From Pseudovibrio exalbescens (GTDB lineage Bacteria; Pseudomonadota; Alphaproteobacteria; Rhizobiales; Stappiaceae): DNA of 64,000 nt. Positions 17,826 to 54,317 of the stretch are shown here, one piece after another. The position numbers and the translations under genes are program-made. Positions within the stretch are counted from its first letter, which is position 1; each line of letters starts with the position of its first letter. The stretch spans positions 186,001-250,000 of the forward strand of contig NZ_JAQZAJ010000005.1 in NCBI RefSeq assembly GCF_028737195.1, read 5' to 3'. The notes beneath the pieces were generated by a model. That model did not search any database and was not told the DNA's origin. It saw only the letters and a program-made list of their open reading frames with translations.

Positions 17826-18024
17826 TTATCTCAGTAGCGCTCCATAGTCATTGTTGCCCCCGCATGCTGCGGGAATTCCTATGGCAGTGCTGCACCTGTT
17901 TGATGCAGCCCCAGGACCTGAGGATGACGCCTCAAATCCTTCGGCATCGGCACCTTTCCGCTGGGGTTTTCGGGGGTCAGCCCTCGACCAGCGTACTGAT
18001 TGCACGACGCTCCTCTACTTGCTC
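17826..18024 (-). promoter_or_regulatory. Lysine riboswitch (L box)
   Basis: Read on the minus strand, the leader contains L-box core segments in the right order: GTAGAGGAGCG and CAATCAGTA (18018 to 17995), GGAAAGGTGCC (17959-17949) and GCCGAAG (to 17939), a GCTGCA/TGCAGC stem within CTGGGGCTGCAT...TGCAGCACTGCCA (17914-17881), and the closing TGGAGCGCTACT (17844-17833). P1 forms between AGTAG (18019-18015) and CTACT (17837-17833). These match the Bacillus lysC-type consensus closely. It precedes an NhaC-type gene, a known lysine-riboswitch target class in other bacteria. Boundaries are approximate. Confidence 0.88.
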
Positions 18025-18214
18025 TCGATTTTTAAAAGAGAACAACCCATTAATGGCCGGGGAGTGCCCCCCAGATCAATACTTGATTGCACGTAGGCGG
18101 ACGGCAAAAACACAAGAAACCGTGATGATGCCGACCACAAACCGCCATGTTTCGCAAGGTCAACGCCAAAGACGCTGCCAGTTTGCCGCCTGCCTGTGAC
18201 AAACGGCTGCGCCC

Positions 18215-43430: not shown

Positions 43431-44705
43431 TTACTTGAACTGAACCAACGCCTTGCGTTTGCGGCCCACCGAAAGAGAAATGCGATCGCCGGTCCGAATA
43501 TCGCCCTCTGAGATCTGCCGCTTTTCATCCAGAATGAGCGTGCCGTTGAGTTTGACGCTGCTGCCTTGAACAAGACGGCGTGCCTCGCTGTTGGAGCCAG
43601 CAAAGCCAATTTTCACGATCAGCTCAAGCAGGCCAATGCGCGTGCTGAGCAGCGCAAGCGGCAGTTCATGGGTTGGTTCTGTACCCTCATCATTTCCAGA
43701 GAACAGGGCCTCACCCTGCTCCATTGCAGCGCGTGCGGCCTCCGGCCCGTGAACAATGCTGGTGACTTGTGTTGCCAGTATCTTCTTGGCCTCGTTCAGC
43801 TCCTGCCCTTCCAGCTTGGCGAGGCGACCAATTTCTGCCAAGGGCAGATCGGTGAACAGCTTGAGGAAGCGGACCACATCGCCATCTGCCGTATTGCGCC
43901 AGAATTGCCAGAAGCCGAAGCTGGATAACCGCTCGGGGCTGAGCCAGACGGCACCGTCGGCGGTTTTGCCCATCTTGGATCCAGAGGCGGTGGTGAGAAG
44001 CGGGAGGGTAAAACCGAAAAGTTGCTTTCCTGCGCGCCGTCCCAGGTCAACGCCGTTGACGATGTTGCCCCATTGATCAGACCCACCAATTTGTAAAACA
44101 CAGTCGAACCGCTTGTTCAGCTCAACAAAATCCACTGCCTGAAGCATCATGTAGCAGAACTCCAGAACAGACAGGGGCTGCTGTGCTTCCAACCTGGACC
44201 GCACGCTGTCAAAGGTCATCATGCGGTTGACGGTGAAGTGGGTGCCGAACTCGCGCAGGAACTCCAAAAAGCGGAACTCGTCCAACCAGTCGGCATTGTT
44301 TGCCATACGGCCTTCACCCTCTGACAGGTCGAACAGACGCTCTACCGTAGCGCGGATACCGTTGAGGTTATGCTCAATCTGGGCGTCATCCAGCATGGGA
44401 CGACTTTCACTGCGAAAGCTTGGGTCGCCAATGCGCGTGGTGCCGCCGCCAACCAGAAGAATGGGCTTGTGATCCAGTTTCTGAAGCCAGCGCATGGCCA
44501 TGAGCGGCAGCAAATGCCCCACATGCAGGCTGTCAGCGGTGGCGTCAAAACCAGCGTACGCGGTGATGGGCCCTTCCATGAGGCGCGCATCAAGCGCTTC
44601 CAGATCCGTGCATTGATGCAGAAAGCCGCGCTCGATCAGAAGCTGGAGGGCCTCCGATTTGGGACGAAAGTTTCGGCTGTTGTCGATGGTGGTGTGAATG
44701 GTCAT
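43431..44705 (-). CDS. tyrS: Tyrosyl-tRNA synthetase
   Basis: Class I synthetase, 424 aa. The HIGH-type motif is LHVGHLLPLM, the KMSKS equivalent is SKMGKTADG, and Tyr-binding residues lie in AYAGFDATADSLHVGH and QIGGSDQWGN. The C-terminal S4 RNA-binding domain (EARRLVQGSSVKLNG) is present. The ATG at 44705 follows AGGAGA. The longer frame to 44738 is not needed. Upstream lies a Tyr-codon leader and attenuator. Confidence 0.97.
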   Translation of the reverse strand: MTIHTTIDNSRNFRPKSEALQLLIERGFLHQCTDLEALDARLMEGPITAYAGFDATADSLHVGHLLPLMAMRWLQKLDHKPILLVGGGTTRIGDPSFRSESRPMLDDAQIEHNLNGIRATVERLFDLSEGEGRMANNADWLDEFRFLEFLREFGTHFTVNRMMTFDSVRSRLEAQQPLSVLEFCYMMLQAVDFVELNKRFDCVLQIGGSDQWGNIVNGVDLGRRAGKQLFGFTLPLLTTASGSKMGKTADGAVWLSPERLSSFGFWQFWRNTADGDVVRFLKLFTDLPLAEIGRLAKLEGQELNEAKKILATQVTSIVHGPEAARAAMEQGEALFSGNDEGTEPTHELPLALLSTRIGLLELIVKIGFAGSNSEARRLVQGSSVKLNGTLILDEKRQISEGDIRTGDRISLSVGRKRKALVQFK

Positions 44706-44736
44706 TTTCAGGTCTCCTGTTGCCACGCAGGGGCCC

Positions 44737-44830
44737 AAAAATGAACAAGCCGCCTGGCGGCGGCTTGGTTGTTCAGTTGATGCTTTTTGTCATGAGCACG
44801 ATCGAACACAAGCCGCAGGTATGTGGCTTG
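44737..44830 (-). promoter_or_regulatory. Transcription attenuator of tyrS (four mutually exclusive segments)
   Basis: Minus-strand segments: 1 = CAAGCC (44830-44825), 2 = GCGGCTTG (44816-44809), 3 = CAAGCCGCC (44767-44759), 4 = GGCGGCTTG (44754-44746) followed by TTCATTTTT (44745-44737). Pairing 1:2 (6 bp) permits 3:4 (9 bp), a terminator. Pairing 2:3 (8 bp, perfect) forms the antiterminator. Segment 1 begins one codon after the Tyr codons of the leader peptide, so a ribosome stalled there would mask it and favour 2:3. This is classical attenuation geometry. Confidence 0.82.
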
Positions 44831-44873
44831 CGTAGTAATAAACAGAGGTGATCATGAACTGCATCTGGGTCAT
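44790..44873 (-). CDS. tyrS leader peptide with three consecutive tyrosine codons
   Basis: A 27-codon frame beginning ATG-ACC-CAG and ending TCA-TGA. Residues 11-17 are VYYYASH, with codons TAT-TAC-TAC at 44840-44832. It lies within the transcribed leader of tyrS and ends before the terminator hairpin. No Shine-Dalgarno precedes it, but the candidate promoter would start transcription at or next to the ATG, so a leaderless start is plausible. In-frame ATGs at codons 4 and 7 are alternatives. Function as a stalling peptide is inferred. Confidence 0.75.
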   Translation of the reverse strand: MTQMQFMITSVYYYASHIPAACVRSCS

Positions 44874-44879
44874 GCCAAT

Positions 44880-44909
44880 TTGATAGCGAGGACCTGCAGA
44901 GAAAGTCAA
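44880..44909 (-). promoter_or_regulatory. Candidate sigma-70 promoter of the tyrS leader
   Basis: Minus strand: -35 TTGACT (44909-44904), 18-nt spacer, -10 TATCAA (44885-44880). The leader ATG begins 7 nt after the -10 box. The -35 falls in one arm of a 10-bp inverted repeat (AGAGAAAGTC / GACTTTCTCT, 44898-44921). Confidence 0.6.
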
Positions 44910-44946
44910 GAGACTTTCTCTCAGGTTCTATTGCAAAAAGTATAAC

Positions 44947-45615
44947 CTACTGTTTGAACTCAGCAAAAAGGCCCGGCAACTGGTGCATATGATCGAAGAT
45001 CAGCACCGGATTCTGGTCCGCAAGCTGTTTGTGAAGGCGCTCTCCGCCGTGTGTCGCGCCTGTAAACCCAAAGCAGTGCATGCCTGCTGCATGGGCGCCC
45101 TGCATGCCGCGCGGGCTGTCTTCAATGACCAGACAGCGGTTCGGCTCGGTCTTCATCAGCTCGGCTGCACGCAAGAAAACGTCCGGAGCCGGTTTGCCCC
45201 GCGCCACGTCCTGCGCAGACACGATCTTGCCTTCAAACCGGTCATAAAGACCCGTGTGAGAAAGGCCGAATTTCAGGTGGCGGTGAGACGCGCCAGAAGC
45301 AATCGCCATCGGCATGTGGTCCAGTTCCGCCAGTGCTTCATGAACACCGGCAACAGCCTGAAGCTCTCGTTCAAAAATCTCAAAGACCCGCTCATAAAGG
45401 CGATCGAAGGCCGGGTGCCCCGACACATCACGGCCCAGCTCAGCTTCCAGTGCCACGAACAAGTCACGGCCTGTCATGCCCGTAAAGCGGTCGATGACGC
45501 CCTGCGCATCAATTTCCAGTCCGACTTCACGCAGGCACTCGGCCTCTGCCTCAGCGGACAGATGCTCACTATCAATCAGGCAGCCATCGCAGTCCCAAAT
45601 GATCAAATCAACCAT
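44947..45615 (-). CDS. HAD-superfamily hydrolase (beta-phosphoglucomutase/phosphatase type)
   Basis: The 222-aa protein is a subfamily IA HAD enzyme: nucleophile and acid Asp in IIWDCDGCLIDSE, IASGASHRHLKFGL (motif II Ser), the Lys in VARGKPAPDVFL, and LVIEDSPRGMQGAHAAGM (motif IV Asp). Substrate is not readable; phosphorylated sugars are common. It lies upstream of tyrS on the same strand, but tyrS seems to have its own promoter. Confidence 0.9.
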   Translation of the reverse strand: MVDLIIWDCDGCLIDSEHLSAEAEAECLREVGLEIDAQGVIDRFTGMTGRDLFVALEAELGRDVSGHPAFDRLYERVFEIFERELQAVAGVHEALAELDHMPMAIASGASHRHLKFGLSHTGLYDRFEGKIVSAQDVARGKPAPDVFLRAAELMKTEPNRCLVIEDSPRGMQGAHAAGMHCFGFTGATHGGERLHKQLADQNPVLIFDHMHQLPGLFAEFKQ

Positions 45616-54084: not shown

Positions 54085-54317
54085 TGCGCCCCCTCTGTCC
54101 TGACAACCTGAGAGATTTCCCGAGCGCGAAACCTGTTGGCCCGCGCCCGATTACTCCTTCGGTGAGGCTCCCCCCGGCACATGCCGAAATTGCCTGCTTT
54201 CCAGAGTGCTGCTTACCAAGCGGTCCTGCGGCCTGAGAGTTTCCGGGGCGGTTGCTCCTTCGGCGTCGCCTGTTGTCACCTAAGGTGACCTAGCGATCTC
54301 TCCCGCTTGGGCGGTTA
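54085..54317 (-). promoter_or_regulatory. Tandem glycine riboswitch
   Basis: Two aptamers on the minus strand. Aptamer 1: AAGCGGGAGAGATCGC, GCCGAAGGAGCAACCGCCCC, GGAAACTCTCAGGC, GGACCGCTTGG. Aptamer 2: CTCTGGAAAG, CACCGAAGGAGTAAT, GGAAATCTCTCAGG, GTCAGGACAGAG. The conserved CCGAAGGAGTAA/GCAA and GGAAACTCTCAGG blocks occur in each. It precedes gcvT, the classical target, and should turn the operon on when glycine is plentiful. The second aptamer has GGAAAG where GGAGAG is usual. Confidence 0.95.

Follow-up and report, generated by a model that had tools for sequence, protein, structure and literature searches.

A predicted tyrosine-codon attenuator upstream of an auxiliary tyrosyl-tRNA synthetase gene in Pseudovibrio and related bacteria

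Introduction

Positions 44873–44737 on the minus strand of the 64,000-nucleotide stretch of DNA analysed here (the window) hold a small reading frame with Tyr codons and three overlapping RNA pairings (1:2, 2:3 and 3:4), directly 5′ of a gene for a tyrosyl-tRNA synthetase. This arrangement raises the question of whether the synthetase gene is controlled by a classical attenuator that responds to the charging of tRNA-Tyr, and of which tyrosyl-tRNA synthetase such a switch would serve.

The tyrS gene of Bacillus is controlled by a T-box, which likewise raises the synthetase when its tRNA is uncharged but differs in binding the tRNA directly and in having no leader peptide. Vecchione and Sello reportedly described, in 2010, an auxiliary, antibiotic-resistant tryptophanyl-tRNA synthetase (TrpRS) under attenuation. 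Among leader-peptide systems, the available sections of PMC1262725 describe trpS and leuS of Streptomyces and pheST of gammaproteobacteria as having classical attenuators, and assign tyrosine control to T-boxes; those of PMC8632094 add a cysS attenuator (uORFC-8-2) from Rhodobacterales as well as an aroF motif of Acholeplasma. The trpLE(G) attenuator RNA of Sinorhizobium meliloti, rnTrpL, is leaderless and begins at the leader AUG, according to the accessible part of PMC7298713.

Results and discussion

Leader architecture

The sequence-only reading from which this analysis started had described a 27-codon minus-strand frame with three Tyr codons and a TTGACT-N18-TATCAA promoter-like motif. 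Both are present, the motif being followed by N6-ATG (Table 1). In the window, helix 3:4 (CAAGCCGCC/GGCGGCTTG, 9 bp) is followed by TTCATTTTT to position 44737 and helix 2:3 (GCGGCUUG/CAAGCCGC) comprises 8 bp, so that these two pairings and the U tract agree with that description. Helix 1:2 (ACGCAAGCC/GGCUUGUGU) also exists, but is longer than the 6 bp proposed for it, with 9 bp starting inside the last Tyr codon. The minimum-energy fold of the window leader consists of these nine 1:2 pairs and the 3:4 terminator.

Table 1. Features of the tyrS1 leader region and other regulatory RNAs of the window (segments are numbered 5′ to 3′ along the transcript)
Feature	Coordinates	Strand	Evidence or remark
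Promoter, TTGACT-N18-TATCAA-N6	44909..44874 (motifs 44909–44880)	minus	Sequence; spacing predicts that transcription begins on the leader AUG or right beside it
Leader ORF, 27 codons plus stop, MTQMQFMITSVYYYASHIPAACVRSCS	44873..44790 (ATG 44873, stop 44792–44790)	minus	Probably leaderless
Regulatory codons UAU UAC UAC (Tyr-Tyr-Tyr)	44840..44832	minus	Aromatic run in 51/51 leaders
Segment 1, ACGCAAGCC	44833..44825	minus	Pairs with 2; 9-bp helix in minimum-energy fold; covariation (1:2 with 3:4)
Segment 2, GCGGCUUGUGU	44816..44806	minus	Pairs with 1 or 3; core 2:3 pairs invariant, columns 76–79
Segment 3, CAAGCCGCC	44767..44759	minus	Pairs with 2 (antiterminator) or 4 (terminator)
Segment 4, GGCGGCUUG, plus U tract, UUCAUUUUU: intrinsic terminator	44754..44737 (segment 4: 44754–44746)	minus	3:4 of 7–11 bp in 51/51
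Second hairpin, 3′ arm with the tyrS1 Shine-Dalgarno sequence (AGGAG, 44718–44714)	44738..44708	minus	Between terminator and tyrS1
tyrS1, auxiliary tyrosyl-tRNA synthetase, 424 aa	44705..43431	minus	TIGR00234 tyrS, 357.7 bits (cut-off 113.8)
Lysine riboswitch aptamer	17827–18025	minus	Rfam RF00168
Glycine riboswitch aptamer	54211–54315	minus	Rfam RF00504

When the 241-nt intergenic region was shuffled 5000 times with its dinucleotides preserved, a YYY frame appeared twice and a comparable terminator 21 times, and the two never appeared together. The 141-nt leader folds 4.2 standard deviations better than its shuffles, none of 200 being equally good. A chance origin of leader plus terminator was rejected because no shuffle among the 5000 had the two features together, and the conservation described below makes it untenable.

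No Rfam model matched the tyrS1 leader at its gathering score, and the Phe_leader and Thr_leader models, which likewise describe a leader peptide with alternative hairpins, matched weakly. RF01859 (Phe_leader) gave a whole-model match at 44740–44874 with 22.2 bits (E = 0.19; gathering score 55), RF00506 (Thr_leader) scored 27.4 bits (E = 0.21; gathering score 55) on the leader of another locus (L112), and eight loci tested with Phe_leader at E ≤ 1 gave no match. The Rfam T-box model matched nowhere in the window at its gathering score and nowhere in 44600–45000 at E ≤ 10.

The downstream gene

The sequence-only reading had placed the attenuator on tyrS, and this holds, with the qualification that the target is an auxiliary copy and not the housekeeping one. 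The genome that contains the window (G000, 4.39 Mb) carries a second tyrS (tyrS2, G000:C1:215845-217074), whose product is 54% identical to TyrS1; the nearest named TyrS1 is that of P. exalbescens, with 84% identity, and named relatives assign the window to Pseudovibrio or its close vicinity. The 21 TyrS1 rows of a 97-row tree form a single long-branched group (support 100/100), whereas TyrS2 falls among canonical alphaproteobacterial TyrS, together with the TyrS of genera that have a single copy; it is on this placement that the auxiliary assignment rests. In one genome of the genus Pseudovibrio (G016), tyrS1 survives as a remnant (residues 268–423, with one stop) behind its leader, indicating that the gene can be lost. 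This locus (L143, G016:C1:3415500-3419800) is an orphan attenuator, with a Tyr-bearing leader (MSRKQSTFSYVYFTVAHIRAARVSYCF) and a terminator before the broken gene. The features of an auxiliary synthetase, namely a second gene beside a housekeeping copy and dispensability, are thus found here in the two tyrS genes of G000, the separate tree groups and the G016 remnant.

A comparison of 10 TyrS1 with 12 housekeeping enzymes shows nine fixed differences; two of them, N184C and Y191V, lie in the motif EFCYMMLQAVDF. This motif aligns with EFSYNLLQGYDF of TyrRS of solved structure (6hb5 and others); 6hb5 is presumably the Escherichia coli enzyme, and the segment presumably borders the Tyr pocket. 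The replacements are suggestive, though only that, of an altered ligand preference of TyrS1. Three other leader-bearing TyrS (G286, G349 and G402) have canonical residues at the N184C and Y191V sites, which weakens the link between the change of motif and the presence of a leader.

Conservation across tyrS1 leaders

The window was compared with 50 loci from genome contigs (L032–L080 and L111), mostly named Pseudovibrio, Roseibium, Labrenzia and Pannonibacter; a further 30 loci from the same search (L081–L110), whose TyrS are 50–61% identical, formed part of the comparison group. A Tyr-bearing aromatic leader and a terminator precede tyrS1 in all 51 loci. Throughout this set TTGAC lies 34–38 nt 5′ of the ATG (counting the second ATG in L072), an in-frame Tyr codon follows 9–17 codons after the ATG and the terminator arm GGCGGCTT is found 78–89 nt further on. 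Retention of the Tyr codons and of the 2:3 and 3:4 complementarity in relatives had been set in advance as a point on which the attenuator reading was to stand or fall, and they are retained in 51 of 51.

Each leader contains two or three Tyr codons. The aromatic runs read YFYY in 34 leaders, YYY in 12 (the window included), FYY in two, YYF in two and FYYY in one. The proposal that Tyr is the sensed signal therefore agrees with the occurrence of Tyr codons in all 51 leaders, Tyr being the sole aromatic residue common to them, but needs qualification because 39 of the 51 runs also contain Phe codons, and Tyr may not be the only signal. Codon positions were compared among 26 distinct leaders in which nine codons precede the run (from 28 of the 51 loci, none in Pseudovibrio). 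Within the run region pairwise changes number 194 at codon position 3, 48 at position 2 and none at position 1, while changes in the N-terminal codons are spread evenly across the three positions (495, 624 and 671). This difference indicates that the frame and the aromatic codons matter and that the peptide does not.

An SD-like 4-mer 5′ of the leader ATG is present in none of the 51 loci, and column counts give a majority −10-like CATTTAA at −13 to −7. Since the distance from the −35 element to the AUG equals that expected from a −35 element to a transcript start, translation of a leaderless mRNA is predicted; a transcript start at or beside the AUG is thereby supported, though not proven.

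Pairings

Uninterrupted helices in the 51 leaders measure 3–9 bp for 1:2, 6–9 bp for 2:3 and 7–11 bp for 3:4, with 1:2 reduced to 3–4 bp in three leaders. Pair statistics were obtained from 50 distinct rows with 500 shuffles. For 1:2 and 3:4 jointly, 86.0% of cells are standard pairs (shuffled mean 84.7; slid versions 35–49%), and two-sided changes occur at six pairs and in 15 cells, neither value being reached in any of the 500 shuffles; the 13 further pair types were equalled by 15 of 500. Among the same rows 2:3 shows no covariation and its core is nearly invariant, as expected of a strand common to two helices. The compensatory changes that the sequence-only reading had suggested looking for in segments 1–4 are thus found for 1:2 and 3:4 and are lacking for 2:3.

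Relative to the start of segment 2, leader stop codons range from 3 nt before to 24 nt after it. The stop comes latest in three leaders: those of the window and L032, which have the longest 1:2 helices (9 bp), and that of L033, with a helix of 6 bp. These stop positions and helix lengths fit a fed-state termination brought about either by covering segment 2 or by its return to segment 1.

A GATCnTG-like motif lies 3′ of segment 2 in many leaders (GATCGTG at about 44803–44797 in the window and GATCTTG in Roseibium). Situated between segments 2 and 3, it is possibly a polymerase pause site.

A hairpin over the Shine-Dalgarno sequence

The 51 loci provide 47 distinct sequences, and in 46 of these the minimum-energy fold pairs the Shine-Dalgarno (SD) core of tyrS1 (mean z = −2.5 against shuffles); the exception is L077. 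The arms of this second hairpin differ in sequence between loci (CUCUCC/GGAGAG, UUCCUGG/CCAGGAA and CCUG/CAGG). Alignment A2 contains 48 of the 51 rows (three identical ones are omitted), and because some of its Pseudovibrio rows are shifted by one column, it was kept out of the pair counts. The starts of tyrS2, examined as a control, mostly have no clear SD sequence, and two apparent positives look like wrong picks. The hairpin probably acts as a brake on translation that would keep the output of read-through mRNA low.

Distribution

Intact tyrS1 is present in 66 of 87 genomes of the family. A covariance model built from the 51 leaders (R1) matches 67 of these genomes, namely the 66 with tyrS1 and G016 with its broken remnant; since the model derives from the same family, this tally records presence and is not independent proof. 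By genus, matches were obtained in 16 of 16, five of five, one of one and 45 of 45 genomes of the four tyrS1 genera, and in none of the 20 genomes of three genera without tyrS1. Over 397 genomes of the order, R1 matched 13 in the family and seven elsewhere. In the genome that contains the window R1 gave eight matches at E ≤ 10, of which that of the window is the only significant one (alone below 0.2). A weak full-length match at C20:251311 (L236; others lie at C11:142299 and C24:216677) was rejected, there being no leader before a gene.

Outside the family, two TyrS matches at 1e-60 were found in four of 377 genomes (G286, G310, G349 and G402). In G310 the additional gene is a fragment, and the leader scan covered the other three genomes, which belong to two other families. 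All three extra tyrS genes scanned there are preceded by a terminator and a leader with a Tyr pair (MIKNAPIAANYYATLP in G349 and G402, MITTAPIAARYYATFP in G286). The three enzymes cluster together in both trees. The 97-row tree had given the impression of a second, independent auxiliary group, which was dropped because the tree enlarged by 30 class-level TyrS joins it with TyrS1: this tree, which has no outgroup, contains long branches and has bootstrap values that had not settled, separates TyrS1 plus the three extra copies from 52 others with support of 96/85. TyrS1 and the three extra enzymes may possibly represent one old leader-bearing auxiliary lineage.

Housekeeping-type tyrS genes were scanned at 70 distinct loci and at 30 from the class (with just 137 nt scanned for L089), and one of the 100 (L187) was flagged as having a leader and a terminator. 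It is not a leader, its Tyr-bearing frame being the tail of the upstream gene; the terminal residues HPVEFDMYYSV are presumably the C-terminus of glutamine synthetase. Three other housekeeping-type loci (L101, L184 and L213) have a short frame with nearby Tyr codons and no terminator, and the scan detected no leader plus terminator at tyrS2 of the genome that contains the window.

Aromatic-codon leaders of other genes

A second model (R2), built from six leaders and run on the same 397 genomes, matched in 229, many of the weaker matches spanning the terminator end of the model only. Among 45 loci inspected (L136–L140, L169 and L239–L277), 24 lie 5′ of a DAHP synthase gene, as judged by motif (Pfam PF00793 was tested for L136 only), with leaders such as MITVATSYFWYFSYDSSLAAGGSRSI. 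At L136, L138, L244, L249, L253, L262–L265 and L275–L277, which represent several families of Hyphomicrobiales, the leader peptide encoded 5′ of the DAHP synthase gene contains many Tyr, Phe and Trp residues and is accompanied by a terminator; in the DAHP synthase leaders measured, TGAC lies 34–36 nt 5′ of the ATG. In one family (f16; L263–L265) the leader, the DAHP synthase gene and tyrS follow in a row.

Tyr-pair leaders (MTTRVTFAVSYYRTNP, MIATAHPIRTYYRPLT and MIATRPLNSYYRLSS) were also seen before prephenate dehydrogenase (tyrA-like) genes in three families (L270, L271 and L273), whose products score above the cut-off of Pfam PF02153 and below every NCBIfam equivalog cut-off. YFW or YWY leaders stand before genes resembling GNAT acetyltransferases (L139, L240, L242, L243, L246, L250, L266, L267 and L269), an assignment made by Pfam for L139 and L266 and by resemblance for the others. 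A trpE(G)-type attenuator with the leader MKMILKSAWWWRGAI occurs in the same family as the window (L146, G061:C93). The R1 or R2 matches in G057, G020, L141, L142, L268 and L274 look spurious and were set aside. As far as the literature search reached, this Hyphomicrobiales set of aromatic-codon attenuators is undescribed; it may form a regulon of aromatic leaders, and the tyrS1 switch may have arisen from it, but this is conjecture.

Proposed mechanism and alternatives

The sequence features that characterize an attenuator are found at this locus: a leader with regulatory codons, mutually exclusive pairings, a terminator before the first structural gene and a downstream gene cognate to the codons. 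Architecture, conservation and the tight association with tyrS1 support the classical attenuator reading of the Tyr leader, and it is very probable that the element is a ribosome-mediated transcription attenuator through which tyrS1 is induced when charged tRNA-Tyr is in short supply, with the start site, the stalling and the induction predicted from the DNA. As judged from the promoter spacing, transcription would start at or beside the leader AUG and the 27-codon leader would be translated from a leaderless mRNA. With ample Tyr-tRNA, the ribosome would pass the Tyr codons and reach the stop codon at or beyond segment 2; with segment 2 covered or re-paired with segment 1, helix 3:4 would form and transcription would terminate near 44737. 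Under a shortage of Tyr-tRNA, it would instead be the ribosome stalled on the Tyr codons that covers segment 1; segment 2 would capture segment 3 and RNA polymerase would read into tyrS1. The physiological signal could be Tyr starvation or a failure of the housekeeping TyrS2.

The presence of YFYY in 34 of 51 runs and of Phe in 39, together with the similar Tyr/Phe/Trp-codon leaders before DAHP synthase genes in other Hyphomicrobiales, could also be expected of a leader that senses aromatic amino acids generally (Tyr plus Phe), tyrS1 being one output of a response to aromatic starvation. This is a minority possibility that deserves some weight, but Tyr alone is universal (51/51), 12 runs including that of the window are YYY only, and the target is a tyrosine–tRNA ligase. 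That the leader serves mainly as the source of a trans-acting small RNA or peptide, in the manner of rnTrpL/peTrpL, with attenuation of tyrS1 secondary, appears improbable. The predicted leaderless, terminated RNA of about 137 nt does have the build of rnTrpL as given in the available part of PMC7298713, and G016 retains leader and terminator despite having a remnant of tyrS1; against this, the N-terminal peptide is unconserved, as seen from its even drift over codon positions in 26 distinct leaders, and the leader tracks tyrS1 genome by genome; the lone orphan may simply reflect a recent loss.

A constitutive terminator combined with a chance or relic reading frame, with tyrS1 transcribed from another start, is barely credible given that no shuffle in 5000 had both features, that the frame, the aromatic run and the promoter spacing are kept in 51 of 51 loci and that the run shows no position-1 changes among 26 leaders. 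The preferred reading remains that of a tyrosine-responsive attenuator of tyrS1.

Relation to known systems

The auxiliary TrpRS is a close parallel: there, as predicted for tyrS1, an additional inducible synthetase gene is controlled by an attenuator that responds to the amino acid its product charges. The two differ in that tyrS1 concerns Tyr and resides in an alphaproteobacterium, and in that antibiotic resistance is a reported trait of the TrpRS. As far as the available sections describe them, the pheST, trpS, leuS and cysS attenuators share with tyrS1 a leader peptide with cognate codons, alternative hairpins and an intrinsic terminator; tyrS1 departs from them in its amino acid, its auxiliary target, its predicted leaderless leader and the extra SD hairpin. 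With rnTrpL, in the part of its description available, the tyrS1 leader shares an alphaproteobacterial attenuator and an RNA from the leader AUG, which is predicted only for tyrS1, whereas rnTrpL has Trp codons and trpE(G) as its target.

The literature searched, to whose coverage the key review (Lopatovskaya 2010) does not belong, yielded no leader-peptide attenuator of tyrS, and the available portions of PMC4833913, PMC10272879 and PMC9413887 contain nothing on such control. Attenuation by a leader peptide is known for synthetase genes; within the literature searched, tyrosine and tyrS are new to this kind of control, and the auxiliary target, the predicted leaderless leader and the SD hairpin are unusual features.

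Biological implications

A broader and more doubtful proposal is that tyrS1 and its attenuator constitute an inducible self-rescue. The leader would sense that TyrS2 is being inhibited by a natural compound active on TyrRS, one that marine animal-associated bacteria either encounter or produce. Charging would then pass to TyrS1, whose motif by the predicted Tyr pocket is altered; the system would derive from an old Tyr-leader TyrS lineage and from the wider Hyphomicrobiales set of aromatic-codon attenuators. This scenario is speculative and is put forward tentatively.

With the switch proposed here, tyrosine and tyrS would join the synthetase genes under leader-peptide attenuation. The tyrS1 leader could be used as it stands to report on how far tRNA-Tyr is charged. 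The location of Tyr leaders on auxiliary and not on housekeeping tyrS genes suggests that second synthetase copies are standby enzymes for occasions when the charging of Tyr-tRNA fails.
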